Positions 6,899-23,738 of a stretch of 28,333 nucleotides of DNA are shown here, piece by piece (position 1 is the stretch's first letter; each line of letters begins with the position of its first letter). The stretch spans positions 1-28,333 of the IMG/VR virus record IMGVR_UViG_3300005613_000328. One strand, given 5' to 3'. The position numbers were made by a program, and so were the translations under genes. Origin of the DNA: a virus. Under the pieces are notes generated by a model. The model was not told the origin of the DNA. It did no database searches and saw only the letters and a program-made list of their open reading frames with translations.

Positions 6899-9571
6899 AT
6901 GGTAAACTTAGACACTTATGTTGGAATAGCTGAAAAGGCACAACAAATTGGAGAGACAACCGATGATCCCCTAGGTGCTGTAGCTTCTGAATTTGGAATC
7001 CCTCCTTGTTTAGCTGACTTAGGAAAGCAAGCCCTAGCTCTTTTAGCTGGGCCCGCTTTGATTGCCTTGCAGGAGCAGTTTATAAAATCGAGGGCTGCGG
7101 TTGAAAATAAGATTAGAAATCTATACTATGCTATCCTTACTAAACTTGGATTAAAAGAGAATGACGATGGAAGCATAAGTATTTTTGGTCAATTGGACTT
7201 TTTACAAAGTGCTTTAGGACTAATAGGTGCTTTAGCAGGGGCTGTTGCTGGAGCTTTAAACGTAATTGCTGAAATCCAAGCTGATATCGAAAATATAATA
7301 AATTGTTTAAACCAATTTAAACAGCTACAGGATGCCAAATCAGGTAATTTTTCTCAAACCTCCCTAGCTGGTACTCAAACTATAAATCAACAGTTTCTAG
7401 GAGCTTTTACCGAAAGACAAAGTATTTACATTAGTTACATTGAAAAATATGACAGAGTAATTAGAGACATTGATGAAATTTTAGAAGAAAGACGCTTAAA
7501 CCCAGACCTAGAGCCCTGCTTTTCTGATTCTGCCGAATTTGATTATTTATTCTCTTCAATTCCAAACAAAAGTTTAATTAAAAGATGTCCCATAGAAGAT
7601 CCAGGAATTGTTCCTACTGATGAAGTCTTTAGACTTACTTATGGACCCCCTATAAGTAGGAGAGGTCAGTACATATTAACTTCCGATGGACTCTACTACG
7701 ACTCTCAAACAGGAGGATTAGATCCAGTATTCCTCGCTATTTCTGGGATTGTTCAGCCTGGAGATGCTTGGAAGTATAACTATGATCCAAATTTAGGTGG
7801 TAAGGGGGACGCTGTTTCTGTTGATGTTTTTGATAAATTTAAAGATAATGTATTTGATAAAGACATAATTGACGATAGTGTAGGTTTAACTTCTTATTAC
7901 GATAAAGATCACTTTTTAGCAGTTCTAAGACAGCAAAGAAATAAACATTTATACGATTTATCATCACAACTTCAAGAGTTTTTTGCTAATGGAGAGACTG
8001 AAGATTCAGCTATAGTTAAGAATCAAAGACAGGTTATTATTTCTGAAATTATAAATCATAATGATAAAATTAACAGAAGAAAAAAACAAATTGAAGTTGC
8101 TGTAAAAGTTCCTGCTTTATATGGTAATGGTGAAATACTTTTCTTACCTGGAGAAATTCCAATTAATGATTTTTCGTTTTTAGAAAATTATAATTTATCA
8201 GTAGATTTACAAAAGCAAAAAACTCTAATATTCTCACAGGCTGAAGTGAACGGGATAGTATTGCCTATACAGCCTAAGTTCGTAAAAGCATCTACAAAAA
8301 GTCCTTCTATTGGATATAATCATCTAGTTGTTCCTAGTGTAGGAAAAGGTGGTATTATTTATAATGTTTCTGGTAGCCAAGGAGCAACCATTTTAAATTT
8401 AGATGATCAAATAACTACTGACGGTCTTTTTGCTATTTATAACTTTTTAGATAGTAATTTAGTTTTACCTTCTTCTTTAGACTTTAAAACAACAAACTGT
8501 GCTACAAATAATTTATATAATAATGCTCAGTTGATTGGAACAAATCCTGATAATGTATTCTTTTCTGGATTATCTATACCTTACTTTGAAGGCTTAGTAA
8601 AAAATAAATCTTCATTCCCGCAAGGAGCTTCAGCGCTTGGTAGTGTTCTTAGACTCCCAGACACCCCTGAGTTTAATAACCTAGCTTACTCTAGATCTGG
8701 GTTTACGATGGAGTGCTGGGTTCATGTTCCAAATATATTGGATGCTGAAACAGGATGGTTAAGTGGAACTACCTCATCGTTGACAAAAGTTTTATTGGCA
8801 AATGAAAATGTTGGTGTCGCGTCTGGAGTTACCTCTACGGATCATTTAGGAGATATCCGAGATTTAGACTTCCTAGACAACGATAAGTCTAGCTCCTATG
8901 TTAGAGGTTTAGTTTGTGGATTTACTAGAGATAGGCGAATTACTCAAGAGTCTGTCGGGTACAGTAATGACAATGCGGACAACGATCCCGTATCCTCACT
9001 TAGCTTTTTCTTAGCACCTACAAGGTCAAGAGACGCAAGCTCCTTGTCTTGGATAAACAATGATGAATGTCAGGACTTTGAGAGCTTCTATAAAATGAAA
9101 GTAGATTTATCAGCAAACGAACTTATTGGAAACGTCTCTTCTCAGTTCGTTCTTATTGATATCTCTGTAGACCCTGATGCTAACGCCATAACATTCTACG
9201 CTGATGGGCAGGTTATAGCTACATCCTCCATAACAAATGTTTTTGGAGTAGACATAGGCCAATCCTTAAATGTTCCAACCTTTAAGAAACCTAATAGTTT
9301 TGAATATACTGCTTCAACAACAGACGGGCCAACTACAATAAAAACCGGTCCAAAACTAGATCCGTTTTACACTCCTTGGATCGTTGGAGGAGGATGGACA
9401 GATGGTATGTATTTAAATGGAAACTTTATGGGAGGAGATCGTGGAGGTATAGTAAGTGGTCTTCGTGGTCATGTTGGAAGTTTAAAGTTTTATTCAAAAC
9501 CTCTAAATACAGCAGAGGTTTTAAATAACTTCAATATTCAAAAAGGATACTTTAAAAATATTAATATTTAA
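6899..9571 (+). CDS. Baseplate-associated structural protein with C-terminal LamG-like domain
   Basis: 890 residues. The N-terminal 140 residues are helical and include IPPCLADLGKQALALLAGPA and a very hydrophobic Ala/Gly/Leu stretch at about 101-127, perhaps a packed helical bundle or membrane-contact segment. The middle (about 150-520) is charged and unrecognised. From about 540 to 885 it has the hallmarks of a concanavalin/LamG sandwich: FTMECWVHVP near 602, a strand pair around ITFYADGQVIATS, and the closing GLRGHVGSLKFYSKPLNTAE, the usual 'G-x-I-x-x-x-x-x-Y-x-x-x-L-x-x-x-E' end. LamG domains bind sugars or proteins, so a surface-adhesion or fibre-docking role is inferred. It lies between spike and gp25 genes, 2 bases after the spike stop, and shares a TAATG junction with gp25. 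No hydrolase motif is visible. Confidence 0.65.
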   Translation: MVNLDTYVGIAEKAQQIGETTDDPLGAVASEFGIPPCLADLGKQALALLAGPALIALQEQFIKSRAAVENKIRNLYYAILTKLGLKENDDGSISIFGQLDFLQSALGLIGALAGAVAGALNVIAEIQADIENIINCLNQFKQLQDAKSGNFSQTSLAGTQTINQQFLGAFTERQSIYISYIEKYDRVIRDIDEILEERRLNPDLEPCFSDSAEFDYLFSSIPNKSLIKRCPIEDPGIVPTDEVFRLTYGPPISRRGQYILTSDGLYYDSQTGGLDPVFLAISGIVQPGDAWKYNYDPNLGGKGDAVSVDVFDKFKDNVFDKDIIDDSVGLTSYYDKDHFLAVLRQQRNKHLYDLSSQLQEFFANGETEDSAIVKNQRQVIISEIINHNDKINRRKKQIEVAVKVPALYGNGEILFLPGEIPINDFSFLENYNLSVDLQKQKTLIFSQAEVNGIVLPIQPKFVKASTKSPSIGYNHLVVPSVGKGGIIYNVSGSQGATILNLDDQITTDGLFAIYNFLDSNLVLPSSLDFKTTNCATNNLYNNAQLIGTNPDNVFFSGLSIPYFEGLVKNKSSFPQGASALGSVLRLPDTPEFNNLAYSRSGFTMECWVHVPNILDAETGWLSGTTSSLTKVLLANENVGVASGVTSTDHLGDIRDLDFLDNDKSSSYVRGLVCGFTRDRRITQESVGYSNDNADNDPVSSLSFFLAPTRSRDASSLSWINNDECQDFESFYKMKVDLSANELIGNVSSQFVLIDISVDPDANAITFYADGQVIATSSITNVFGVDIGQSLNVPTFKKPNSFEYTASTTDGPTTIKTGPKLDPFYTPWIVGGGWTDGMYLNGNFMGGDRGGIVSGLRGHVGSLKFYSKPLNTAEVLNNFNIQKGYFKNINI

Positions 9572-10038
9572 TGGCTAATTCTACAGAAAGTACATTATTT
9601 GGTTTAACTCCAGCAAGATTTAACACTCAGTCATCTCAGTCTAAAAAAAGTGAGGTTTATGGGCTAGGCTATCCTTTACATAAAAATAAAACAGAAGGTG
9701 GTTACTTTACAAAAGTAACAGGAAAAGAGCTAATTATTGGCGCAATTAAACAGCTAGTTTACACAGAAAAAGGAGAACGAGTTATGCTACCAGACTTTGG
9801 ATGTTCTCTAAAGAGGTTTTTGTTTGAACCTCTTGATGAAACTGTTTTTTCTGCTATTAAAAGAGAGATAGTAGAAGCTTTTAGTAAATATATTGTGGGA
9901 GCTAGAATACTTTCATTAAATGTTTTTTCTGGAAAAAGTAATGGCCCCTCTGAGTCAAATAGTTTGCTAGTCGTACTCACAGTTCAAATAGCCACAGAAG
10001 ATTTATTAATTTTTGATGTCCCAATTTTAATATCATGA
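9571..10038 (+). CDS. gp25: Baseplate wedge protein, gp25/GPW family
   Basis: 155 residues. gp25 is part of the wedge core and contacts the first sheath disc. The family signature is clear at about 65-90: YTEKGERVMLPDFGCSLKRF followed by LFEPLD, matching 'G-E-R-x-x-x-P-x-F-G-x-x-L-x-x-x-x-F-E-P'. A helix (ETVFSAIKREIVEAF) and the second conserved strand follow. The family's conserved EPR triplet should fall near residue 110, where the sequence reads YIVGARIL: the arginine is kept but Glu-Pro is replaced by Gly-Ala. The C-terminal strands end in FDVPILIS, as expected. An N-terminal extension of about 45 residues is Ser/Thr/Lys-rich. It overlaps both neighbours (1 base before, 4 bases after), so it is translationally coupled with gp6. 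Confidence 0.9.
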   Translation: MANSTESTLFGLTPARFNTQSSQSKKSEVYGLGYPLHKNKTEGGYFTKVTGKELIIGAIKQLVYTEKGERVMLPDFGCSLKRFLFEPLDETVFSAIKREIVEAFSKYIVGARILSLNVFSGKSNGPSESNSLLVVLTVQIATEDLLIFDVPILIS

Positions 10039-11609
10039 ATTTAAGTAGCACAATTTCATCAGACTTCTTAAAACTAGCAAACCTACCAATCGGAAGAAGA
10101 GCAGGGTTAATAGACTTTGCTTCTTCTGATTTTATTTCTTTAAGAGAAGCCTTACTTAGATACGCACAGGCAGTTTACCCTGAAGATTACAAATACTTCA
10201 TAGAATCTGATTTGGGCATTATGTTCTTGGAAATGATAGCATACATGGGATCCGTAATGTCTATGAAGGCTGATATGTTAGCCAATGAAAACTATTTCGC
10301 TACAGCTAAAAGAAGATCAAGTGTTAAGAGACTTTTAGATTTAATCGGCGTTAAAATGAAAGGACCACTTTCCTCTGCCGCAGACGCTGCTATAACTTTT
10401 AGTCAGTCAGTTAATGAGGTTGTAACGATTTCAGCCGAAAATCGGGTTATTTCTATATCTTCTCCAGAAGACGGAGATGCTTTAAACTTTACTATCTATA
10501 AAGTTACTGACGGACAAATAGATCCTTTAAATAATACTACAGCTTCTTTAGAACTAACCCTAACTGGAACTTCTTACTATGATGCCATAGCTATTCAAGA
10601 AGGAGCATTAGTTACTGACAGTGGTTCCTTTGATGCAACAGAAGACGTAAAAACTATAGCACTAACCCGAGGGCCTGTTATTGATGGTAGTATTCAGGTT
10701 TATGTATCAGATACAACTGTTCCAGACTTACAAGGGACTTATACTCAAGTAGAAAATATATTCTTTGCATCAGGCTCTAATGATAAACTATTTGAAGTAG
10801 TATATGATGATAACTATAATGCTACTATTATTTTTGGAAACGGTATTGCAGGAGCTAATCCATCTCCAGATGCTTCCTATTTTGTAACTTATAGGGTTGG
10901 AGGAGGTTCTAGGGGTAACATACAAAAAAACGCATTAAATGTTAATTTAGATATTACCTTACCAGCAGGAACTACTGCAACTTTAACGAACACATCTGTT
11001 GCCACGGGTGGGGCTAACGCAGAGACGGTAGAAAAAGCTAAAAAGTATGCTCCATTAGCATTTAGGAGGCAAGACCGTTTAGTAACTTTAGAAGACTATG
11101 CTTCGTTTGCTAATGGGTTTATTAGCACTTGGGGGACCATAGGAAAAGCAATAGCGGTAACTAGGAAGGCGTATGCTTCAGCTAATATTATTGATATTTA
11201 TGTATTAGAAAAAGCTGCAGATATTCAATTACAAAAAGCTACAACAGCCTTTAAAACAAACCTATTAACAGCGATTAACCAAAAAAAGATGGCTACTGAT
11301 GAGATCGTTATTGTTGACGGTTTAATCAGAACATTAGATTTAGTGGTCACTATAAAAATAGATAAATCTAATCAGTATAATGAACCTCTAATTTTAGCTA
11401 AAGCTAGAGATAAAATTTTAACCTATATGAATGTAGATAATAGAGACTTTGGTTTAGCTTTAGGTATTTCAGAGCTTAATAGGCAAATTTTTGAAGTTGA
11501 AGAGATTAGATATTCTACTGTAGATAATTTTGATAAAGATATTATAGTAGATTATAATGAAATTATTCAGTTGAATAATTTAACTATTAATGTAGAACTC
11601 CTAGACTAA
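10035..11609 (+). CDS. gp6: Baseplate wedge protein, gp6/baseplate-J family
   Basis: 524 residues. gp6/gpJ proteins dimerise into the inner ring of the baseplate and drive its hexagon-to-star change. Recognisable parts in order: SDLGIMFLEMIAYMGSVM with the following helix ending in ANENYFATAKRR (about 58-98), the start of the family; the beta region with ATIIFGNGIAG (about 262-272) and YRVGGGSRGN (about 287-296), the near-invariant 'F-G-x-G ... Y-x-x-G-G-x-x-G-N' block; and FRRQDRLVTLEDYASFA (about 343-360), the conserved 'R-x-x-T-x-x-D-Y' helix. The C-terminal half (about 370-524) has the alternating strand-helix pattern of the wedge-contact domain. The length is normal for compact phage gp6 proteins. 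It overlaps gp25 by 4 bases and the next gene by 1 base. Confidence 0.92.
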   Translation: MNLSSTISSDFLKLANLPIGRRAGLIDFASSDFISLREALLRYAQAVYPEDYKYFIESDLGIMFLEMIAYMGSVMSMKADMLANENYFATAKRRSSVKRLLDLIGVKMKGPLSSAADAAITFSQSVNEVVTISAENRVISISSPEDGDALNFTIYKVTDGQIDPLNNTTASLELTLTGTSYYDAIAIQEGALVTDSGSFDATEDVKTIALTRGPVIDGSIQVYVSDTTVPDLQGTYTQVENIFFASGSNDKLFEVVYDDNYNATIIFGNGIAGANPSPDASYFVTYRVGGGSRGNIQKNALNVNLDITLPAGTTATLTNTSVATGGANAETVEKAKKYAPLAFRRQDRLVTLEDYASFANGFISTWGTIGKAIAVTRKAYASANIIDIYVLEKAADIQLQKATTAFKTNLLTAINQKKMATDEIVIVDGLIRTLDLVVTIKIDKSNQYNEPLILAKARDKILTYMNVDNRDFGLALGISELNRQIFEVEEIRYSTVDNFDKDIIVDYNEIIQLNNLTINVELLD

Positions 11610-14600
11610 TGACTGAATACTATAGATCTAATAGTAGAAACTACACTAAAGTTAACTTTGTAGAATTACTAGAGACTTTAACTCCAGAGTTTTATAAGCT
11701 TGAGGATTCTAATTTTAGTGGATTAGAACTAAACCCCTTTTCTGATATTATTAATTCTCATGTAAGGGGAGCTTCTATTATTACATCTGTATTACCCCTA
11801 TCTTCAATAACGGGAACTATTACACAAAATTTAGACTCAATTTCAGGTATCTCTAAGTTTTTTGTAAAACAAAATAACTTAACGTACATAACCCCTGTAT
11901 CCTTTGAAGAAAAAATACTATATCCTTTAGGAACTTCTTTTAAAAACTATAATACAAGTTCAGAGTTTTATAACTATGTTTCCTCTACGCTCTGCCCTCT
12001 CTTAGTTCCTGCTAGAAATACTACTGCTACCACACTAGAAAGCAATATGACCACATTATCCTCACTTACAAATAATGAGGATGCTTCTAGTGCTCATGTT
12101 TACTTAACTGAACATTTAGGATTATATTATTTCTTAAACACTACTGGAAATGTTCTATCTCTGGATCCTTCAAGTCTAGTTGCTAGAGATCTTACAAAAG
12201 TATACAGTGGAGAAACTTTAGAAACTGTTGATGGTGTAAAAGCCTATACTGAATATATTTGGAAAAACTACCAGGATATAGCTCTTTGGAGAATAAACAA
12301 TCTTATTCCAGAAACTTTTGTATCTGGTTCGGCTGATGCTATTTTAAATCCTTCAGATGGCATTGTTGCTACTTATACCAGCGGAACTCAAAAACTGGAT
12401 TCTCTTTTAACCTTAGTGGATGCTGTTTATTCTAAGCTGTTTATTGATGCTTCGGATTACAGAGTAAGAGATGCTTTTAATGATTATATTCAAGGATCAA
12501 CTTTTTTAGATGACACGGTAAGTAAAGGACCTCTTAGAAGACTTCAAACTGCTATGGGATTAGCTATGGCAGATTATACAGAAGCAGTAGAGAATTTAAA
12601 TTTAATTTACGATGTTAACTGTGTAAAGGATGAGCAACTTCAATATATCGCAGAGCTAATAGGCTGGAAGCTTAGAGGATCTAGCTCGGATAAATGGAGG
12701 CACCAGTTAAGAACAGCAGTTGAGCTTTATAAAAAAAGCGGAACTCTAGAGTCTATTCAGTCAGCCATTAACAACATCGTTACAAATAGTATTTTAGATG
12801 TTTCAGGTAGAGTTAGTGAACTTTGGGAATCTTATATTCCATTTTTAATTTGGTATTCTTTAGCTACTGAATCTGATTTGTTTTTAACTTTAAATACTTG
12901 GACACAAAGCCTTGCCACTCAAGCAGGTATTCAAAGTTACAGTATTAGTAGCGTAGAAGAAAATTTAAAGATTGTAACAGACACTATACTACTCAGGCTT
13001 TATAAACTATTTCCACAAAACTTTAGATTTGATAACAAATTATGGGATCCCCCTAGATTGTACAGGCTTAATAAGTTTGCTGAACCAACAGAGCTGTACA
13101 CAATATATAATGAAGACTTTATAAAACCATTTCATATTTATCGTTATGATGAGCCTATTTACAATGTTAAAAGAAAAGAAGCGCAAGCTTTTGGAGAAAC
13201 CGTAGTTTTTGATGCAGCCTTAACTCATGGTCCTTTAGGTTATGGTGTTTACGCTGAGGGGGAGGATATTCCTACTGATGGTAGTCGTCCTAAGTACCTA
13301 TCTGCTACAGGGGATTTGAATTTTGTTTATTCCTACAGAGGTCATTACAACTACCCAGTTCCTCCATTTGAAGAAGTAAAATATTATAAGGACTGTACAG
13401 TTACCGAAGATCTTCTTATTGCATTAGAGGAACAATTAGCTTGTTTTGGTGTTAGAGATTCTTTTGCTAGACAGGTTAGAGATTTTATAACTAGTGCGTG
13501 TATTACTGATAATACAAACTTAACTACATTAAACGAGTTTTTAATGTTCTTTAGTAGTATGGAAAATCCCCCTAACTATGAAGAAGTTATAAATAAAACA
13601 AAATATAATTTTGAACTTTTTAGTTTATGGAACGGAAAGTCTTCTCATCTTTTCCTAGATTTTGATAATGCTGATTTTAATTTTGTCAAATATCAAATGG
13701 ATTCTGATAGTAGATATGCTTTGAAAGAAGCTTCTGAAGTAGCTAATGAGTTCTCCCCAGCACACGCGATAGTAAGAACTAATCTAAACGCTAGTGATAT
13801 AGATGATGCGTATGATTACTCTTCAGTTTCCTATGATTTCTTAAGTTACAAAAACACTGATTCGTATGAGTCTTATACCTCCGCAGCTCTGGTATCAAAC
13901 TTTGAGCAATCTGGAGTTAGTATGTCTTTTGCTAATGGAGGCGGGGACTCGGACTTGGGATCCGACGATGGTAGAGGAGGTCTTAGTACCTTTAAACGTG
14001 ATAAAGTAGATTCAATTTTCGATACTCTAGCATTTTCGGCAGACCCAGGAGAGGTACTATCTACAAATGTTAATAGAAGAGCTTTAAGAAGAAGAAACTA
14101 TAAGTACTTACTTCCTAAGAACGGTTATTATGATAGAACAGGTTTTAATGGTCCCACCAGTTTTGATACTTCTGTTTTAGAAAAATCTACTACTAGTTCT
14201 CTAGGAGAATTTACTTTGGGATATGTTGTTTCTTCTGGACAGTTTTATCCTATTGTGGATCCTATCAGCCCCTCTGGAGTTTGGAATATTTGTGAAGGTT
14301 TGAACTCTGAAAAGCAGTTCTTCGGTGTTTATACTAGCGCAACATTCCCATACAGAGGACTTTCTTCTGTGGCTCTTAACAATAATGAAAAGATTCCAGA
14401 GCTATCTCCTAGCACCACTAAGTATAACGATAGAGGACAGCTACCTTATGTCTATCAAGTAATACATAACGCTATGATGTCTCAAGCTTCTGCTTACGCT
14501 GAGAATCAAATTGAACTTTCTTCATCCGCTTTTGATCTAAACAGATACTGGAAAAATAATATTCAAAGTGTAGCAAATCAGGCAGTTGCTGATGGTTATG

Positions 14601-16069
14601 TATTAACCTCTTATGATGATTATCTAAACTTCTCTTTCGGATCTGGATTACACAAACTCTTTAGAGACTATAATAAACATTTTGAACATGATCTAGGAGG
14701 TTATTACTTAGATAAGACTGGAGGTTCGATTTTTGGACACACCTTCGGAAGAGCATTATTTAATTGTGATTTTAAGTTAGAAGGAGAGAACTCAACTACA
14801 GCAGAAGGAAGCTATATAGCCTCTAGCTTCGCTAGTTCTGTACCCTTAGCCTTTAATTCAGGTTCTGGAGTTTTTAGTGAGTATGGAGTTACAAATTATG
14901 GTAGTTATATCGCCAGTGATTCTGGAGAGTTATATGTACCAAGAGACGGGTATCTAAGTCCTGGAGGTAGCTTTCAGGCAGAGTTTAGAAATGCTACTAT
15001 TTTAAGTGGAGTTGAATTCGTTAATACTTCTGGAGTCTCAGTAAATAACAGCTTTAGAATATATAAGTTAGATGACTCTCTCATATCTGAAGTTTCTGAG
15101 CCAAGACTTATTGAAAATACAATAGTAAAATGTAAGTCTGTAGATGGACTTCCTAGAATTAGATTTGACGTTAGTGCTTACGGAGAGGATCAAAATACCT
15201 TAATAAAAGACCACAGGTTTAAGCTAACTATTAATGCTCTTTTTGGAGATGAGAAGATTAATAATTTAGGTGGAGGAAAACTAGGAGTTTGGATCCACAC
15301 AGATGTAGTTGGTTCTGATACCAAGTATTTTTGGAGTTGGACAAAAAACAATAAATGGGAGCTAATAAAAGAGAGTGAAGTAAGTATAGAAAAAGTAACT
15401 AGCGATTTAGCAATAATAAAAAACTTTGCTTTAAAGACAAAGGATAACGAGTGTTTTATTCATACGGTTCCTGGATACGACCCAGATTCCATTAAACTAT
15501 CAAATATTGTTTATAGCGACTTTGAACCGTTTGAAGTTAACTTTGATACTAGAAACTTTACAATATTCAACAACTTTGAATACCTAGACGTTATCCCTGT
15601 TCCAGAAAGATATCATTCAATTAAGGAACAAGTACACCTCAATGAGCTTCAGCCTACAAACTACATAATTGAAATTTTTGCTATTCCACAAAAAGCAAAT
15701 AATTCTAAGTTTTTATTAATAGAAGATATACAGCTTCAGGATTTAACTCTTAGAGATTGGGCTGCGGTGCCTCTTGGTTTTGGAACGGAAACTAACTCTA
15801 CTCCCTTGAGAAGGTTTGTAAAAGAGAAACTATACTATTTAAGCGACTTAGAGCTTTTAGAGGTATTAAAGTTCTATAATGGATTAGTAGGTAACGGTAG
15901 TTCTAAATATACTACAAACTTGGCTTCGAGGGATTCTACGATTACTTCGCCTATTCTAGAGCAATCAGGAGGAAGTAGGCTAAACTATCGAATTCATCCT
16001 GAGTGGGCTACATATACTAAAGCTTCAGGAACTAACAATACCTATACCTTGATTAATCTTTATAACTAA
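11609..16069 (+). CDS. Giant wedge protein with P2 gpI / T4 gp7-like segment
   Basis: 1486 residues. The part at about 311-410 resembles tail protein I / gp7: YDVNCVKDEQLQYIAELIGW, then KWRHQLRTAVELYKKSGTLE and a helix with SIQSAINNIV. The conserved core is an arginine, an aromatic and K-[KS]-G-T before a helix. gpI/gp7 joins the two gp6 subunits in each wedge, and the gene directly follows gp6, the standard order. P2 gpI is about 176 residues and T4 gp7 about 1032, so this version carries large extra arms. A Gly/Asp-rich hinge lies at about 777-793, followed by an Arg-rich stretch (RRALRRRNYKYLLP, about 821-834) and mainly beta-rich, Ser/Tyr/Asn-rich sequence to the end. The arms probably hold peripheral baseplate or fibre attachments. 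Start and end both use TAATG overlaps. Confidence 0.7.
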   Translation: MTEYYRSNSRNYTKVNFVELLETLTPEFYKLEDSNFSGLELNPFSDIINSHVRGASIITSVLPLSSITGTITQNLDSISGISKFFVKQNNLTYITPVSFEEKILYPLGTSFKNYNTSSEFYNYVSSTLCPLLVPARNTTATTLESNMTTLSSLTNNEDASSAHVYLTEHLGLYYFLNTTGNVLSLDPSSLVARDLTKVYSGETLETVDGVKAYTEYIWKNYQDIALWRINNLIPETFVSGSADAILNPSDGIVATYTSGTQKLDSLLTLVDAVYSKLFIDASDYRVRDAFNDYIQGSTFLDDTVSKGPLRRLQTAMGLAMADYTEAVENLNLIYDVNCVKDEQLQYIAELIGWKLRGSSSDKWRHQLRTAVELYKKSGTLESIQSAINNIVTNSILDVSGRVSELWESYIPFLIWYSLATESDLFLTLNTWTQSLATQAGIQSYSISSVEENLKIVTDTILLRLYKLFPQNFRFDNKLWDPPRLYRLNKFAEPTELYTIYNEDFIKPFHIYRYDEPIYNVKRKEAQAFGETVVFDAALTHGPLGYGVYAEGEDIPTDGSRPKYLSATGDLNFVYSYRGHYNYPVPPFEEVKYYKDCTVTEDLLIALEEQLACFGVRDSFARQVRDFITSACITDNTNLTTLNEFLMFFSSMENPPNYEEVINKTKYNFELFSLWNGKSSHLFLDFDNADFNFVKYQMDSDSRYALKEASEVANEFSPAHAIVRTNLNASDIDDAYDYSSVSYDFLSYKNTDSYESYTSAALVSNFEQSGVSMSFANGGGDSDLGSDDGRGGLSTFKRDKVDSIFDTLAFSADPGEVLSTNVNRRALRRRNYKYLLPKNGYYDRTGFNGPTSFDTSVLEKSTTSSLGEFTLGYVVSSGQFYPIVDPISPSGVWNICEGLNSEKQFFGVYTSATFPYRGLSSVALNNNEKIPELSPSTTKYNDRGQLPYVYQVIHNAMMSQASAYAENQIELSSSAFDLNRYWKNNIQSVANQAVADGYVLTSYDDYLNFSFGSGLHKLFRDYNKHFEHDLGGYYLDKTGGSIFGHTFGRALFNCDFKLEGENSTTAEGSYIASSFASSVPLAFNSGSGVFSEYGVTNYGSYIASDSGELYVPRDGYLSPGGSFQAEFRNATILSGVEFVNTSGVSVNNSFRIYKLDDSLISEVSEPRLIENTIVKCKSVDGLPRIRFDVSAYGEDQNTLIKDHRFKLTINALFGDEKINNLGGGKLGVWIHTDVVGSDTKYFWSWTKNNKWELIKESEVSIEKVTSDLAIIKNFALKTKDNECFIHTVPGYDPDSIKLSNIVYSDFEPFEVNFDTRNFTIFNNFEYLDVIPVPERYHSIKEQVHLNELQPTNYIIEIFAIPQKANNSKFLLIEDIQLQDLTLRDWAAVPLGFGTETNSTPLRRFVKEKLYYLSDLELLEVLKFYNGLVGNGSSKYTTNLASRDSTITSPILEQSGGSRLNYRIHPEWATYTKASGTNNTYTLINLYN

Positions 16070-17127
16070 TGAAAGGCGAAGTAGAAATTTGGAGAGGAGA
16101 CTCCTTAATACATAAAGAATCTAACATGATTGTCGATGGAGCGGGTGTTATCATAGCTGACATGATGACTGCTACCCCGTCTCTATCAGGCTATGATCCT
16201 ACTTTGTCATCAGTTTTAGATCCATCAAACTATTGTATACAGGCTATTTCTTTTGGAACTGGTAAAGACGCTTTTACTAGTAATGCTCATAATACAGGAG
16301 AGCCACTTGGTATTCTTATACAGCAGCGCCAAGTATATGTTTGGGACAATAAGCAAGAGGAAGCATTACTGTTTGTTAATTTTTCTGCTATCGACGGAAG
16401 TGCTTATATTCCAGAAGCAGGGTTTCCAGAAGCGCCTAATCCCCAACTAACTCGTCTAGAGATGGGAGATACCACAACCTATCAAATTTTACCTAGTGAG
16501 GCAAACGTATCCTCTTATTTCGTAGGAAATGGACAGCTAGTAAACTTACTACCATCATCCATAGTTTTAAATACCACTGAGATCACTGGAGCAAATGAGG
16601 TTGACAAAAAAGTAATAGGATCTACTTTAGGATGTTTCCCTCCAGGAGGAGTTCCTTCAATTTCCGCGATTGCTATTTTCTCTGACGGATCAGAATTATC
16701 GTCTTTAATCGGCTCAAGCACATTTAATAGTGCTAGTAGTATGGATTATTCAGGATTTGTTTCTTTCCAAAAAGGAGTTTCTGATCCTGCTTCTGGTTTA
16801 GTTGTAGCCCCTATAGGTTTCTCTTACCTTAGCGGGGTAGAATATTCAGTAGAACTAGGACCTGGAGATCTTCAGTGTGCTAACTTGTACGGAGGTATAT
16901 ATCATCTTGGTTTATGGTGTTTAGATTTACAGCAATCACTTAGGTCTGGAAATATTCCCCCTTATAGCTTTAGTATACTAAATAATCCTAGGAAATACAG
17001 GTTATTTGCTATAAAAAGTTTTAATGTAGATATAACCAAGAATGAAGATAATGGATCTACCTCTGGATTTACAAACTACGCGAGTGATCAAAACCTACTT
17101 ATTAAATGGAAGTTGAAGTTCTTATAA
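16069..17127 (+). CDS. Putative fibre-hinge or wedge-periphery protein, paralogue A
   Basis: 352 residues, with no catalytic motif and no signal peptide. The N-terminus (KGEVEIWRGDSLIHKESNMI then VDGAG) is a short beta meander followed by NYCIQAISFGTG. The C-terminus ends NLLIKWKLKFL. Similar elements in the same order occur in the next gene (IIVSGMG, DYQIGKFQVGVSG, SLIFRWTINF), so the two look like diverged duplicates. The layout 'strand, N-x-[IM]-[IV]-x-G-x-G, G-rich strand, central ISAIAIF/LNEIGLF strand, closing aromatic strand' recalls the docking/hinge domains of tail-collar fibres, in which an EIGLF-like strand and a final W-x-[IL]-x-F strand recur. That link is inference. It shares TAATG with the giant wedge gene and ends one base before its paralogue. 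Confidence 0.5.
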   Translation: MKGEVEIWRGDSLIHKESNMIVDGAGVIIADMMTATPSLSGYDPTLSSVLDPSNYCIQAISFGTGKDAFTSNAHNTGEPLGILIQQRQVYVWDNKQEEALLFVNFSAIDGSAYIPEAGFPEAPNPQLTRLEMGDTTTYQILPSEANVSSYFVGNGQLVNLLPSSIVLNTTEITGANEVDKKVIGSTLGCFPPGGVPSISAIAIFSDGSELSSLIGSSTFNSASSMDYSGFVSFQKGVSDPASGLVVAPIGFSYLSGVEYSVELGPGDLQCANLYGGIYHLGLWCLDLQQSLRSGNIPPYSFSILNNPRKYRLFAIKSFNVDITKNEDNGSTSGFTNYASDQNLLIKWKLKFL

Positions 17128-17128
17128 T

Positions 17129-17737
17129 ATGAATTTTATAGAAGAAAAAAGCATAAACGGTCATCTAACTATTATTAAAAAATATTCTTCTGGTAAAGAA
17201 GAAATTTTATTAGATGAAAATAATATTATTGTTTCTGGTATGGGATTTGCTTTATCTAAGTTTTTTTCTCATAACCACGCAACTAATAATACTATTCTTG
17301 ATTACCAAATTGGAAAATTTCAAGTAGGCGTTTCTGGTCCACCAGCGGGGGGAGTGGTTAGTTCAATTTTTGAATTAAGTGGAGCTTTAAGTTCTATTAG
17401 TGAATATGGATTAGGAAGTAACTTAGTGATTGAATCCCTACAGCCTATAATAGGTACAGGTGTTGGAGCAGCAAAACCCTTTGCTAATATACCTCATAGC
17501 AAGATAACAAGGGTAGGAGATTCTTCTGTTAGATACACTTTAGTTATAGATGAAGAGGCTTGTAACAACCTCACTAGGGATTCTTCTGATGCGTATTTAA
17601 ATGAGATTGGACTATTTGTAAATAATCCTTTAGGATCAGCATCAGAAAACCCTATTCTTGTAGCATATAAAACCTTTAGTAATATTTATAAAACTAGCGA
17701 TTTTAGTTTAATCTTTAGATGGACAATTAACTTCTAG
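17129..17737 (+). CDS. Putative fibre-hinge or wedge-periphery protein, paralogue B
   Basis: 202 residues, the shorter relative of the preceding product. It has N-terminal strands with NNIIVSGMGFALSKFF, then YQIGKFQVGVSG, a Gly/Ala middle, the segment KITRVGDSSVRYTLVID, the strand LNEIGLFVNNP and the closing SLIFRWTINF. The EIGLF strand followed by a final W-x-I-x-F strand is typical of phage tail-collar or fibre-attachment domains that assemble as trimers, so a connector between wedge and fibres is the likeliest role. It sits between the larger paralogue and the first fibre gene, with spacers of 1 and 2 bases and no Shine-Dalgarno site. The extra 150 residues in paralogue A lie between the shared N- and C-terminal elements. 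Function not proven. Confidence 0.5.
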   Translation: MNFIEEKSINGHLTIIKKYSSGKEEILLDENNIIVSGMGFALSKFFSHNHATNNTILDYQIGKFQVGVSGPPAGGVVSSIFELSGALSSISEYGLGSNLVIESLQPIIGTGVGAAKPFANIPHSKITRVGDSSVRYTLVIDEEACNNLTRDSSDAYLNEIGLFVNNPLGSASENPILVAYKTFSNIYKTSDFSLIFRWTINF

Positions 17738-17739
17738 TC

Positions 17740-20700
17740 ATGGCATTTAAGAGTGAAGACATTTATACAGCAAGCGGGAATACTAAACTATTCAACGCTT
17801 GGACTCCATATGTTTCTAAGTTTGATACTAGCTCCTTTTACAACTGGGAGCAGGATAACCTTCCTCTTTATGATCTAGAGGAAAGAACTTATGAGCTATG
17901 GGAACAGCAAGGATGGCCTACTTCTTCTGTTCCTGGTTTGGCTCTCACTGTATCTGCTGACGCTGATTCCGCTACATTACTTAGTGAAAGCACTCTTTTT
18001 ATTGATGTGAGTTCAGCTATCGCTGCGATTCCAAAGATTGTAAGATTCCCTGTTTTAATTGAAGTAGGAAGCTTTGGAGATTTAGGAAAGCTAGAGTTAC
18101 ATAACTTTAGATTTGAAGAAAACGGATCAATTGAGATTATTAATAGAAACTTTGGAAGATTTTTATGTGCTTCTTCTATAGTTAGTGAGAGTGATCTTCC
18201 TGATAATAATAAATCTCAAAGATTAGTAACTCAGGTTAGTTCCTTAGATCTTAGTAATACTTTAAGTGATTCAAGCTGTGTTCATTTAGCTATTCCTGTG
18301 TTTAGTGCTACAATGGATAGTAGATTTGGTGGCACAAATTCTACAATGTTTGCTCATTTAAATCATGACGAAAGAAAGTCTACCTTAAGTGTAACTCATC
18401 AAAATCTAACTGTTACTGGTGGAGCTAATCTGTTTGGAACAAATTTAGCCGCCGCCAACGTCTACGAAGATACAGCATCAACTCACTCCGATCTATCCAT
18501 ATCAACAGAAGATTTATCCGCTGTTTCAGACTTTTCAAATTCTATAATAACAAGAACTCCACTTGCTACAACAGGACAAGAAGTAAAAGGAGCTATTTAT
18601 AATAACTATTGTTCAAAGATTAGTATAAAGAATTGCGAAGGTCCAATTTACATAAGAAACTTTCTTGTAGATCCAGCAAATGCAGTTGAAAACGGAATAG
18701 AAGTTAATAACTCAGAAGTTGTTCTTGAAAACTGTGCTTCTATAAGAAGTAAAAATGCTGGATTTAAATTTAGTAATTCTAAAGTAACTTTATCTAGATC
18801 AGCCTTTAGTTACAGAAATTATGAACTTGATGGAGGTCTTGGAAGCAATTCAAGAATTATAAATAAAGGAACCGGATTTTTATGCTTAAATAGTGAAGTT
18901 ACTTTAAGCTCTTCACCAGCAACCTTGGGATCTAGTAATGGCGCTAAAGATTACGGAGCTTCGGCAAAGGATGCCGTATTCATCGCTGCTAGAAATACCT
19001 ATGGGTTTGTTTTAGAAAACTCTATACTAAACGGAGGTTTATCTAGATCAGATCTAACAGATCCAGAAACGGCTAGTCTGTTATCCGCAGAGTGTAACAA
19101 GCAGGATGGATTCCGCTTAACAAATTCAATAGTTAATGTTAAAGGACTAATTGATGTTTATAATAATGACGTAGGTATAAACTCTACCAATTCTACAATA
19201 GTAACAGAGGAGCTGTGTGTAGATAGACAGAACTCTGAGGGTTACTTAGCTACAGGCTCTCGATTTACGTTTGATTCTTCTGGATTTTTTACAGAGGCTG
19301 GGCAGGCTTCTCGTAGTCAAGTAGATTTTACTTTAAACAAACAGCACGTTGTTCTAAAGAGTGGTAGCATTTTTGAGTTTAAAGAAAAAAACCACACGCC
19401 AACTCTTTATGGTTCTATGAAGTTTATGGTTAGTCATGGGGCGGAAATCTTTGGTGTAGGTGGAAACGTTGCTTCTGATAAATGCTATTTACCTTCTATT
19501 TCAGTTGAAGGCGGATCTAAGCTTTCTCTTATTCATCCTTTTATTGATGTCTCTGAGGATGGACCTCCCTCTACACCAGATTTTGGAAAAGCTTTAAGAG
19601 TTATTAATGGATCGGTAGCTTCTTTATATGGAACAAAAACAGGCTGTAATGCCATTATAGGCCCTGATGCCTATGCTAACCAGATTTTATCGGCAGGAGC
19701 ATATGTAGCAACAGGATCTACTTTAAACCTTCACGGCCCAACCCTCATAGCTAAATTTGGAGTTGATGTCTTAGTAGAGGATCACTCCACGCTGAATATT
19801 CAGCCTTCTAGAAATAGAACTAACAATGGTTTAAATGCTAGTTCTTTTGATTTAGAGGATACAGCGAACCACACTAGCGTAGAGTTACATTCAGTAAAAG
19901 CTTGTTTAGTTGCTAATAACAACTCAACTATTAATCTTCAAGATCTTGGTGATTTTAGACCAAATTGGGAGAGGACCACAAACGGGAGCAATAAACTTAA
20001 TAATGGCTATGATTATGTTGTTGCCACAACAACCCCAAGTGCATTAGTGGCTAATGGATCATTACAGTTTTTTCCAAATCCAAATGATCCGCCAACAGTG
20101 ACTAGTAATAGTCTTCATCAGCCTACTAACCTAACGGCTTTAGGATCTACATCATTTCCTAAGTTTACCACAGGAACTTACATGAATACTTTCCTAGTCA
20201 ATGATAACCCCGTATTAGGAACTAATAATGAAACTTTAAGAGGTGGGGTTTCGTTGGGAGGTATATGCGTTAGAGCTTTAGGAAATAGTGTAGTAAACGC
20301 TATGAATGTTCACTTCCCAACAGGTAACGATGGGGGAGAGCTTGACGGATTGTTATATAATGCTTCTGGATCAAACTGTGATAGACTGATGATTTGGAAT
20401 ATAGCAGATACTTCAAAACTAAATGCTTCTTATCTATCTGTTAGTGGGCTTTATCCTTTGGACGCTCAATATTATGGACCTAGCGCCGTTTATGTTTCCT
20501 CTGATAGTTATGGAACTAATGCTACTTCCTTTGATTTTGCTTCAGGAGCACCTACAGGAACTCCAGATACGGGATCTTTAAGTATTCTTGATAGCTTTGG
20601 GTACTCTCCTGGAAATGGTTGGAGTCTTCCCATTGGAGCTAGTATAAACTCTTCCTTTACTAGATTCTTCCCAATGGATTTAACAAGTCTTGACAAAACC

Positions 20701-21309
20701 GATCTGTCGGGAGCCGAGATTATCCTGGAATCTAATGAAACCTCCTTACAGTATGGAGCTTCAGCGGTAGCTAATACAGGACCATTTAGGCTTTATTTCT
20801 CTGTAAGTCCCGCCGCAAAGGTTTTAGCTACCGATGTTAGTGGTTATGCTTATGGAGTATTTGATGGTTACGGTGCTGGTCAACCCTACGAAGGAGAGGT
20901 GGGTGCTGCGTATCAAATATTCTCACAAGGTTACAACTTATCCGCTCCTGTTTCTGCTATAAACTTAGAGGGGGGTAACTCAGCAAGTTCAGTTTATCCT
21001 CAACTATTAAAAATGAGTAAAGATACTGATGCCGATAATTTACCAGACAGCCTTGTAACTTCAGGATTCTACTACTGCTCTGAATTTGTTGAAAGTAATC
21101 CAACTCAGTGTATGTTAGATGAGTCTGCTGCCTCTACTTTTGCTAACGCTAAAAATGCATCTTTAGGAACCTCTGGTAGGCCAAAGAAGGTTACTGTATA
21201 TCAAGCAGGATCTGATGTAGCCACAAATAGAGGATCAGAGGCGTATCAGGGAGATTCCATAGTAGGATTTAAAAGTTCCAACATTTTTGATTTACGGAGA
21301 AACTGTTAA
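17740..21309 (+). CDS. Large tail fibre/tailspike-type protein with right-handed beta-helix
   Basis: 1189 residues. The N-terminus has a short motif, YNWEQDNLPLYDLEE (34-48), shared with the next protein and probably the attachment module. From about 285 to 735 the sequence repeats short beta-helix rungs with Asn ladders, such as SKISIKNCEGPIYIRNF, SEVVLENCASIRS, SKVTLSRSAFSY and STINLQDLG, the pattern of pectate-lyase-like trimeric tailspikes. Residues about 740-1150 are Gly/Ser/Asn-rich beta sequence, and the chain ends in a cysteine (LRRNC). Such proteins bind, and sometimes cleave, surface polysaccharide. I cannot identify an acidic catalytic pair from sequence, so enzyme activity is open. 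It follows the paralogue pair by 2 bases and precedes the next fibre by 2 bases. A virion-surface location is inferred from fold and position. Confidence 0.7.
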   Translation: MAFKSEDIYTASGNTKLFNAWTPYVSKFDTSSFYNWEQDNLPLYDLEERTYELWEQQGWPTSSVPGLALTVSADADSATLLSESTLFIDVSSAIAAIPKIVRFPVLIEVGSFGDLGKLELHNFRFEENGSIEIINRNFGRFLCASSIVSESDLPDNNKSQRLVTQVSSLDLSNTLSDSSCVHLAIPVFSATMDSRFGGTNSTMFAHLNHDERKSTLSVTHQNLTVTGGANLFGTNLAAANVYEDTASTHSDLSISTEDLSAVSDFSNSIITRTPLATTGQEVKGAIYNNYCSKISIKNCEGPIYIRNFLVDPANAVENGIEVNNSEVVLENCASIRSKNAGFKFSNSKVTLSRSAFSYRNYELDGGLGSNSRIINKGTGFLCLNSEVTLSSSPATLGSSNGAKDYGASAKDAVFIAARNTYGFVLENSILNGGLSRSDLTDPETASLLSAECNKQDGFRLTNSIVNVKGLIDVYNNDVGINSTNSTIVTEELCVDRQNSEGYLATGSRFTFDSSGFFTEAGQASRSQVDFTLNKQHVVLKSGSIFEFKEKNHTPTLYGSMKFMVSHGAEIFGVGGNVASDKCYLPSISVEGGSKLSLIHPFIDVSEDGPPSTPDFGKALRVINGSVASLYGTKTGCNAIIGPDAYANQILSAGAYVATGSTLNLHGPTLIAKFGVDVLVEDHSTLNIQPSRNRTNNGLNASSFDLEDTANHTSVELHSVKACLVANNNSTINLQDLGDFRPNWERTTNGSNKLNNGYDYVVATTTPSALVANGSLQFFPNPNDPPTVTSNSLHQPTNLTALGSTSFPKFTTGTYMNTFLVNDNPVLGTNNETLRGGVSLGGICVRALGNSVVNAMNVHFPTGNDGGELDGLLYNASGSNCDRLMIWNIADTSKLNASYLSVSGLYPLDAQYYGPSAVYVSSDSYGTNATSFDFASGAPTGTPDTGSLSILDSFGYSPGNGWSLPIGASINSSFTRFFPMDLTSLDKTDLSGAEIILESNETSLQYGASAVANTGPFRLYFSVSPAAKVLATDVSGYAYGVFDGYGAGQPYEGEVGAAYQIFSQGYNLSAPVSAINLEGGNSASSVYPQLLKMSKDTDADNLPDSLVTSGFYYCSEFVESNPTQCMLDESAASTFANAKNASLGTSGRPKKVTVYQAGSDVATNRGSEAYQGDSIVGFKSSNIFDLRRNC

Positions 21310-21311
21310 TT

Positions 21312-23738
21312 ATGGCTGAGTTTAATTTTAAAGATAGTAACTATAGGTTCTCTGATCCTATTCGATTTTTTAAGGCTAATGATCCTTATTATTTTGAAGT
21401 CGATAATATTCCCTTAAAACAACTTCAAGAAAACTGTTTATGGTTGAAAGATCAGCTTAGACAGTCTACACCTGAAGTTCAAAAAGTAAAAAGGGCTGAT
21501 ATTGATGAGCTTAGACCTTACGCTACTGGAGGAGATAGACTAATTCGAGTTAATCCAGGAAGATATACTGCTAGAGTAAATGATGCGACTAAGTATAGAC
21601 CTCTTGCCTATCTTCTTAGACAGTCTGGTCAAGAGGTTGGAGAAACTGATTCCTGGCTCGCTGCGGTTCCTGGAGAGGGCACCTTCGGAACAAACTCAAC
21701 GATATCTTGGAACACCTTTTTAGATGGAGCTTTACAAAAGTTTAAGAGTTCAATTTATTCTACTGGGGGAGGTCCATTAGACACTACTAACTCTTTAGGA
21801 TTAAATGGTTTAGAGACTAGAGTTTTTACTTGGCCTGTTGTTAATTCAGACTTTGCTATTAATAATACTGGGGTTGTTTTAGATGACTCAGTTTCCTACA
21901 TCAAGTATGGGGATTTAAGCCAAAATAATCCAGGAGGCTCTGTTGCTTTTGTTCCCACAGTAATATCACAAGCAATACTTTGGGCTAAAAGCTTTTCTTC
22001 ACAGAGCTTTCCTCTGTTTACTCATGAGGGTATCGAGTCAGATGGTTTTGCCAAATTAGCAAGAACTGAATCACATTTTGTAAAACTGTGGAGAGGTGTT
22101 GCTAGAACTGCTGTTGTAGATATAGATGAAGAGCTTACGATTGAAGTTCCTGCTTTTAATACAGAAGACTTTAACTACATAGATGAAGACGGAAATGAAC
22201 AATCAGTAGGTGGTGTACAAACTAGAATTGATTTAGTATTTATTTACACTAAACCTGTAGATATGGAAGAAGTAAACATTCTTAAACCTACAGGAAAAAC
22301 AACTATAACAAAACCTCAGTTAGGTATTGTTAAAGGAGCAGGTATAAAACTTAACTTAGATCCTGTAAATAATACAGAGGCAGAAAAAGGTAGATGGCAG
22401 CCTACAACTGATGAACACAAAATCTTAGCTTGCCCAGCAGACCAGAATAATCCAACACTAGGGTTTACAGCCACTTCTGCTAATGATCTTGCTTATGACG
22501 TTAGAGGAACATTCCCAACTCCAGATGATCTACTTAACTTAGCTCCATTACTTTCAGAAAGATTAGAGACAGACGCTATCGAACTGGTAGGTCAAAGTAT
22601 TCTTCCTGTTGCTTATGTGTGGGTTCGTAATGAAGGCGATTTATTGACTAATGGTAGTGTTCCTGTTCAAACTACCGATGTTATTGATATTCGTCCTTTC
22701 TTTAGGACTACCGAACTGGCTTACAATGAAAGGGCAGGCATCGCAGCAGCATTTCCTCAACTATCTTTAGCTAACCCCGCAGTTGGAAAAGCACAACTAG
22801 ATTATGAACTACGCAGAGTTCATAAAGATTTGTTAGCAAAAATACCTGTAATTGGTGAAGGTCCCTCTGTAGGAATTAAAACTGTTGCTACGGGATATGT
22901 TTTCGGAGGTTGGTTCTTCGGACCTGAAGGAACTTTATTAAACTATTTCCAAAACGCAGTTTCTCCCTTAGTTACTAAACAACAAGTAGGGCAACAGATG
23001 GGTTTCGTTAATGCGCCTAATTATCCTGATTGGGACATAGGAGAATGGACTCAGTACTATGAACTAGATTCTCCTGGAAAATACGCAGTAGATTATTTCA
23101 ACTATGCGCCATTAGGGACTCCAGAAACTTTAGTCGCTGGATGTTTCTCTGGGAAGGTTAATGAGGATGGAAAAACAGATGGTGGAGCCGAACCTCCAAC
23201 AACCTTTAGTACAGCTCAAGGAGGAACACAAGAAATTATATTAACATCTGCTAGTGAAGAGAGAGCGATTATATTCAAAAAAACAATATACTTTGATAGA
23301 CCTTCAGATATGATTGATTATTGTGTTGATGTTAATTTAGTAAATAGTATGCTAGTTTACGATGGAACCCCAGATGGAACTAGTGATCTGGCCGTAGCAC
23401 AAAATATTTATGTCGCTAAAGAGTTTAATCGCTTTACCGTAGTAGTTACTAACGGGTTTAATGTACAAGATGATCAGTATCTTGATGATATTCAAACCCA
23501 TAGGGAAGGTAAGGCAAACAATAGAATGGCTCAGATAGCTGTTTGTGTACCTCCTTTAATGTACTCTCAATTAGATCAGTCACTTAAATCTAATTGGTCT
23601 AAAGGAATTGTTTCTTTTGGAACTTGTTACTATCCAACCGTTCAATGGACTATGACTGGTATTTATCCAGAAGACTCGGCTTATTATGGTGGAGTTTCTG
23701 TTACTAGTCCTTCTAATCCCTTAAATGTTATTAGATAA
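21312..23738 (+). CDS. Second fibre/peripheral structural protein sharing the N-terminal module
   Basis: 808 residues. The N-terminus reads YYFEVDNIPLKQLQEN (26-41) and aligns with the E-x-D-N-[LI]-P-L-x-x-L-x-E motif of the preceding fibre, followed in both by a helix with Trp/Leu and Gln. This suggests both dock on the same baseplate site or on each other. The remainder is beta-rich. A compact block at about 455-515, with DVIDIRPFFRTTELAYNERA, PQLSLANPAVGKAQLDYE and a helix, looks like a conserved folded core. The C-terminal 250 residues contain a strand-rich region ending LNVIR. No enzymatic motif is seen. A GGAG lies 12 bases before the ATG, weak support for the start. It is probably a fibre, whisker or baseplate-periphery subunit. 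The exact family is not recognised. Confidence 0.55.
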   Translation: MAEFNFKDSNYRFSDPIRFFKANDPYYFEVDNIPLKQLQENCLWLKDQLRQSTPEVQKVKRADIDELRPYATGGDRLIRVNPGRYTARVNDATKYRPLAYLLRQSGQEVGETDSWLAAVPGEGTFGTNSTISWNTFLDGALQKFKSSIYSTGGGPLDTTNSLGLNGLETRVFTWPVVNSDFAINNTGVVLDDSVSYIKYGDLSQNNPGGSVAFVPTVISQAILWAKSFSSQSFPLFTHEGIESDGFAKLARTESHFVKLWRGVARTAVVDIDEELTIEVPAFNTEDFNYIDEDGNEQSVGGVQTRIDLVFIYTKPVDMEEVNILKPTGKTTITKPQLGIVKGAGIKLNLDPVNNTEAEKGRWQPTTDEHKILACPADQNNPTLGFTATSANDLAYDVRGTFPTPDDLLNLAPLLSERLETDAIELVGQSILPVAYVWVRNEGDLLTNGSVPVQTTDVIDIRPFFRTTELAYNERAGIAAAFPQLSLANPAVGKAQLDYELRRVHKDLLAKIPVIGEGPSVGIKTVATGYVFGGWFFGPEGTLLNYFQNAVSPLVTKQQVGQQMGFVNAPNYPDWDIGEWTQYYELDSPGKYAVDYFNYAPLGTPETLVAGCFSGKVNEDGKTDGGAEPPTTFSTAQGGTQEIILTSASEERAIIFKKTIYFDRPSDMIDYCVDVNLVNSMLVYDGTPDGTSDLAVAQNIYVAKEFNRFTVVVTNGFNVQDDQYLDDIQTHREGKANNRMAQIAVCVPPLMYSQLDQSLKSNWSKGIVSFGTCYYPTVQWTMTGIYPEDSAYYGGVSVTSPSNPLNVIR

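Follow-up and report, generated by a model that had tools for sequence, protein, structure and literature searches.

A putative N-terminal anchor motif on co-resident adhesins of an uncultured contractile-tailed phage and its relatives

We begin by asking why two neighbouring genes of an uncultured phage, whose products otherwise look different, should open with nearly the same short stretch of residues. The DNA analysed here (the window) is an IMG/VR virus record in its entirety, 28,333 bases long. It contains the baseplate block of a contractile tail, in the order gp25-type gene, gp6-type gene, a gene in the gp7 position, parA, parB, P1 and P2, all on the + strand. The gp25-type (9571-10038; phrog_261, E 1.7e-15) and gp6-type baseplate wedge proteins (10035-11609; phrog_219, E 2.2e-34) are followed by a protein of 1486 residues (11609-16069) that has no match in the PHROG search; it is assigned to the gp7 position by its place after these two genes, and its family is conserved upstream of parA. 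The 352-residue product of parA (16069-17127) has an N-terminus that resembles, by eye, that of parB (17129-17737; 202 residues, PHROG 5417 family), which is our candidate acceptor for the motif; two contigs show weak A6 matches where parA is located. The motif itself is carried by the products of the next two open reading frames, P1 (17740-21309; 1189 residues, tailspike-type) and P2 (21312-23738; 808 residues, fibre-type), the latter lying directly downstream of P1 in relatives also.

The motif and the bodies behind it

The motif strings sit where the original prediction had placed them, YNWEQDNLPLYDLEERT at residues 34-50 of P1 (17839-17889) and YYFEVDNIPLKQLQEN at residues 26-41 of P2, the latter within the longer stretch DPYYFEVDNIPLKQLQEN (residues 24-41, 21381-21434). 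Several details need correction. The P2 motif stops at 21434, and the end coordinate first assigned to it was too far downstream. The motif is real, but its consensus had been written with one residue omitted and fails on P1, because N35 stands two residues ahead of E37; the corrected form is Y-x-[WFY]-E-x-D-N-x-P-[LIV]-x-x-[LI]. What had been read behind the P1 motif as W-x-x-x-Q is W-x-x-Q at residues 54-57, and Q57 is not conserved. The full module at the start of both proteins is about 30 residues long and reads [FY]-x5-Y-x-[WFY]-E-x-D-N-x-P-L-x-x-L-x-x-[NR]. Its core differs between the two proteins, being E-Q-D-N in P1 and [EKQ]-V-D-N in P2, and each version is nearly constant. A helix had been expected to follow the motif in both; AlphaFold2 lends this weak support, predicting one at residues 35-51 of P2 (21414-21464, pLDDT about 60-71) and one at residues 46-52 of P1, within the first 54 residues, where pLDDT is below 50.

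Behind the motif the two proteins are built differently. The AlphaFold2 model of P1 (mean pLDDT 77.4, pTM 0.80) has an N-terminal arm at residues 1-64 (17740-17931), of which residues 1-54 are of low confidence, and a right-handed parallel beta-helix that begins near residue 65, as do the structural matches. These matches include 8egr_A (Z 22.9), 7chu_A (Z 20.6, rmsd 2.4 over 261), the CBA120 TSP2 6w4q_C (Z 19.5, rmsd 2.9 over 265), the phi297 tailspike 4ru5_C (Foldseek E 6.0e-05), and several further tailspikes and polysaccharide lyases. From this model we are confident that P1 belongs to the beta-helical tailspike type. The model of P2 is poor (mean pLDDT 55); on it, residues 517-791 (22860-23684) may form a beta-sandwich with weak likeness to H-type lectins and pyocin fibre ends (VIA Z of at most 4.9). 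A search of the P2 fold in BFVD gives nothing at E below 0.1, with some rows labelled H-type lectin above E 0.1, and a VIA-align row that pairs P2 residues 3-56 with 7b5h_AC (Z 2.5, rmsd 7.0) was put aside. By sequence, neither protein has a match in Pfam, anything better than E 0.09 in PHROG or, with its profile, any match in the PDB.

The surroundings of this pair offer some observations of their own. The gene after P2 (23747-27223) encodes a protein of 1158 residues, the front of which is rich in Gly, Pro and Cys and repetitive, with near-repeats of GDGIIFVDGSVTEQDLISDFGVT; most relatives in the window's clade share its start, F-x-C-G-x-F-L-P-G-x-G, in the protein that follows P2. In the other clade (L095, L096, L103, L106, L128 and others) P2 is followed by a short protein that looks, by eye, like a lipoprotein, combining a signal sequence and a Cys box with a stretch rich in glycine. 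Ahead of the wedge genes, a protein of 890 residues (6899-9571), with no PHROG match, has a C-terminal part that by eye resembles a domain of the LamG/concanavalin type.

Conservation and reach of the motif

The next question is whether the motif belongs to the families of P1 and P2 or is peculiar to the window. A first scan with P1 gave 80 loci, and with the window included the motif is found in 81 of 81 P1 proteins. It is likewise found in P2 at all 68 of these loci that include the P2 start; the other 13 stop before it, 12 of them inside P1 and one (L067) 78 bases past P1. Because the motif was among the patterns of this first scan, the scan was redone with the bodies alone, using queries from residue 101 on, and the loci obtained in this way are to a large extent those of the first set. 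The P1 body finds 80 relatives, all with the motif, 77 in the exact expression and 3 with one residue off (L226, L254, L267). The P2 body finds 80 loci, of which L332 and L345 begin inside the gene and were excluded; the motif is present in all 78 relatives with a start, exactly in 77 and with one residue off in L297. The four near-miss sequences were scored as positive after inspection. Absence from homologues had been named as the outcome that would overturn the prediction; this test was run, and the motif is present in the body-scan relatives of both proteins. No other 15-residue window of either protein is as conserved, the values being 0.893 against a mean of 0.478 for P1 (87 sequences) and 0.855 against 0.389 for P2 (83 sequences), in sets that were partly chosen via the motif. 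Both proteins therefore have a short conserved stretch near the N-terminus, as receptor-binding proteins (RBPs) with anchor peptides do.

Does the likeness between the P1 and P2 motifs reflect one module? The two sequences alone say little. Their top ungapped BLOSUM62 segment scores 49, a score that 50 of 1000 shuffles of P2 equal, and it ranks 2nd among the 105 protein pairs of the window; this is weak and would not be significant. The family profiles are more informative. When the N-terminal profiles of P1 and P2 are aligned by hhalign, the score is 39.97 (P-value 4.5e-6, probability 86.6; 94.8 with a 38-column cut). No column shuffle out of 299 reaches this score or exceeds 23.5; reversal gives 1.6, and with the P2 motif masked the probability of 86.6 falls to 0.09. 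Among the 5030 open frames of the loci, a P1 motif profile matches 121 of the 136 P2-type proteins at a cut-off of E up to 10, with 10 of the 121 at E up to 0.01; 8 of its matches lack the regular-expression motif, and one of these is a genuine variant (L167). The bodies are as unlike as had been claimed: BLAST divides 237 distinct motif proteins into 11 clusters, none of which combines P1-type with P2-type proteins. All 101 P1-type proteins fall into one cluster and the P2-type proteins are spread over the ten others, several of which may be distant kin of each other. A module thus exists that is constant, N-terminal, independent of the body and reused.

The motif had also been proposed as a handle for finding fibre genes, and in this role it performs well. 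A DNA pattern made from the P2 motif alone, with no P1 content, finds at least 58 stretches in IMG/VR; 26 of the 58 have a P1-type gene upstream, L124 has a variant of it, and most of the others have too little upstream DNA. A pattern with R after N finds 27 stretches, mostly with proteins of 300-400 residues. The records behind many of these are about 170-185 kb in size and have Salmonella phage Arash and Vibrio phage D69 as relatives; we treat them as a second group beside the P1/P2-type records. Whole-protein tblastn of P1 and P2, and likewise of P2 and P1 of L137, finds no match in 50,697 phage records; with the N-terminal pieces as query, Arash and the Vibrio phages D69, D181 and D148 are found. 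Matches to phiEaH2 (near the C-terminal end of its gene) and S-SSM7 (on the strand opposite to the annotated gene) are due to chance, and one to Brevundimonas phage Delta was dropped as chance after inspection.

The motif proteins occur together. At 91 of the 92 loci with both genes, the gap between P1 and P2 is -7 to 8 bases; the exception, L092, has another motif gene between them and three in all. A third family stands just after P2 in L086, L087, L097, L099 and L112, with a start that mostly reads D-N-x-P-L-x-x-L-x-x-N-D. Other motif-headed proteins include one of 602 residues (L126) with a tail-collar match (phrog_910, E 4.1e-42) and a Peptidase_S74 domain, that is, a chaperone tail fibre; one of 865 residues (L165) with weak BNR/Asp-box matches under the curated cut-off; and two short proteins in L167, all of them from the R-pattern set. 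Beside these, L092 (6674-10585, YNYTTDNYSTTSLEER) and L124 (2048-6139, - strand, YNYEQDNSSITTLESR) each have a paralogue that resembles P1 but whose motif has decayed; the one in L124 has a long repetitive stretch.

Run on 30 whole records, the motif profile matches 27, the 3 without a match being T4, S-SSM7 and RM378. A motif-bearing contig has one to three such places: the P1/P2 contigs have two or three each (but one in G013, a contig that begins shortly upstream of P2), and the second-group records have one in 8 of 9 and two in the ninth. A gp23-type major capsid gene (PF07068) is present in 6 of 6 P1/P2-type records tested, lying outside the window, and in 0 of 4 records of the Arash/D69 group, so the motif recurs in phages without a T4-type capsid gene. 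The gp23-bearing uncultured phages of the P1/P2 kind are presumably those called Far-T4. When one genome per species was scanned, a single record was returned, the 130,604-base contig of the Prochlorococcus single cell AG-409-P03, with a P1-P2 pair; this hints at a cyanobacterial host for a relative. On the same contig, the gene at the parA position (L170, 6125-7999, - strand) has, by eye, an alpha/beta-hydrolase-like stretch with GFSNGG.

A probable anchor, its rivals and a candidate socket

Taken together, we think it probable, with some reserve, that the N-terminal motif of P1 and P2 is an anchor that fastens several co-resident adhesins to the baseplate. P1, a beta-helical tailspike, and P2, a fibre-type protein of another kind, would both be host-attachment proteins of one contractile-tailed phage. 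The D-N-x-P turn and the short helix after it would rest on a common protein at the baseplate periphery, and the bodies would be free to diverge or be swapped while the anchor stays. We infer the binding to the baseplate, and the partner in it. The original prediction had proposed a common adaptor by which alternative appendages would attach to one baseplate site. Of this, the short, near-invariant N-terminal module on different fibre- and spike-type bodies stands. The word "alternative" finds no support because the motif proteins occur together: P2 has its motif at every one of the 68 loci with its start, and there are two or three motif genes on a whole P1/P2 contig. At the level of genes, the motif is thus found on at least two RBPs with different bodies per P1/P2 contig, as in known anchor peptides. 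Since E-Q-D-N and [EKQ]-V-D-N are each near-constant yet differ, P1 and P2 may use equivalent rather than identical sites.

Other explanations have to be weighed against this. The motif could be a folding element, an N-terminal cap and helix that start the trimer and have no common outside partner. Fibres and spikes are usually trimers, which suits such a role, as does the helix that AlphaFold2 predicts after the motif in P2 and, weakly, in P1. A helix alone, however, has no obvious need for a near-invariant E-Q-D-N or E-V-D-N conserved above the level of the body, and the motif precedes bodies of very different kinds; we regard this explanation as unlikely, though deserving of attention. P1 and P2 could instead bind each other in a branched spike complex, with the motif serving between them. 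Their adjacency at 91 of 92 loci would fit, and branched complexes exist in the Ackermannviridae, as described in the part of PMC11721090 available. A contact between the two is nevertheless unlikely as the general use of the motif, because 8 of the 9 second-group records show a single motif protein (3 of the 9 are below 80 kb and may be fragments), and we consider this arrangement distinctly improbable.

Least probable of all, in our view, is that P1 resembles P2 by accident, the two motifs being conserved for separate reasons. The marginal result from the two sequences alone would allow it; against it stand the column shuffles, none of which matches the profile score, and the P1 motif profile, which picks out most P2-type proteins and brings in few matches outside the expression. 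Convergence of the two on one binding site is conceivable and would preserve the docking reading.

If the motif is an anchor, which protein would receive it? The original prediction had pointed to the gp7-like protein. We prefer parB, possibly together with its look-alike parA, over the gp7-like protein alone, because parB is present in both groups and the gp7-like protein is not found in the second. A parB profile matches all 11 records of the first group, 7 of the 9 in the second (the motif-bearing G014 and G024 have no match) and none of T4, S-SSM7 and RM378; in the same records, the gp7-like profile matches 10 of 11, 0 of 9 and 0 of 3. Among 12 further named phages, parB is matched only in P. 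putida phage Illi-2, which was included since an earlier parB search had found it, and the motif profile in none; with Illi-2 left out, none of the 14 named phages without the motif has the parB family. Over 35 records, 18 have both parB and motif, 2 the motif only, 1 parB only and 14 neither (Fisher P 7e-7, a value that ignores relatedness and comes from hand-picked controls and a parB profile that was itself derived from phages with the motif). parB may also simply be a common baseplate gene.

PHROG 5417 matches the parB-like proteins of GR11A, Illi-2, D69 and GN1 with E 2.6e-11 to 2.5e-21, and that of the window weakly (3.1e-5). The parB-like gene follows annotated wedge-type genes in Illi-2 and GN1, and precedes the next tail-region gene in GR11A, Illi-2 and GN1. 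In GR11A the product of that next gene has GVLNRPLKQLLDNDLEL near its start (profile E 1.8e-5 among 15 proteins); in Illi-2 it has GVLNRPLYSLYQSTEML (0.0041 among 15 with a joint profile, 5.8 bits, weak), and in GN1 a doubtful trace of the motif. The gene after parB lacks the motif in Arash, D69, L371, L372 and L373, where the motif gene lies elsewhere. Scanning IMG/VR with parB gave one weak locus (L379), which the parB profile did not confirm at E 0.01, and a second scan gave none.

It is tempting to extend these results to a general plug and socket of contractile-tailed phages, common to lineages with different capsids, in which spikes and fibres would carry a D-N-x-P-L-x-x-L-x-x-N plug and PHROG 5417 proteins, encoded beside the wedge genes, would be the socket. 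In GR11A and, as a weak match, in Illi-2, the large tail protein beside PHROG 5417 begins with the half-plug N-R-P-L-x-x-L, which points this way; we hold the extension as tentative and rather doubtful. Two observations adjoin this subject. In Vibrio phages EniLVp02 and D479, genes with the fibritin neck whisker annotation (H71, H74; E 0.02 and 7) have starts similar to that of GR11A_130, so the half-motif may reach neck fibres. At the parA position, the protein has about 1490-1500 residues in some phages (L116, 4299-8816; L136, 1488-5948), against 352 in the window.

Known anchor peptides and what the motif may mean

Conserved anchor peptides of RBPs are known in principle. The available part of PMC6872550 describes conserved N-terminal peptides of 7 and 11 residues on the RBPs of K1-5, K1E and SP6, and others in the Klebsiella KP32, KP34, Menlow and PhiK64-1 groups, the peptide differing for each phage group. 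Compared with what is described there, P1 and P2 are alike in that a short conserved N-terminus heads different co-resident RBPs with diverse, often beta-helical bodies; they are unlike in that the module has another sequence, is longer (about 30 residues) and spans phages with different capsid genes. The TSP1-4 proteins of the Ackermannviridae, as far as the accessible part of PMC11721090 goes, are likewise several co-resident beta-helical spikes with conserved N-termini, but these are folded XD, TD and anchor domains, where P1 has a short arm of low model confidence. As with gp9-gp12 of T4, the P1 and P2 genes come after gp6- and gp7-type genes; unlike them, the motif profile has no match in T4. 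The idea that T4 baseplate proteins begin with something like the motif was given up for this reason, and our Pfam and PHROG searches recognise no T4 gp10-like domain by sequence. In the literature searched, which lacks most subscription journals and preprints, the strings DNRPL, VDNRP, EVDNIP, EVDNLP and WEQDN occur in three papers, and to judge by their titles none of these deals with phages. The family of the P1/P2 motif thus appears to be unreported.

Many adhesins of uncultured phages escape recognition, their bodies having nothing in common with known proteins; P1 and P2 are examples. A tag of 30 residues that remains constant while the bodies change provides a direct handle for listing such adhesins. 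Should the PHROG 5417 protein prove to be the socket, a family of unknown function would gain a testable role.
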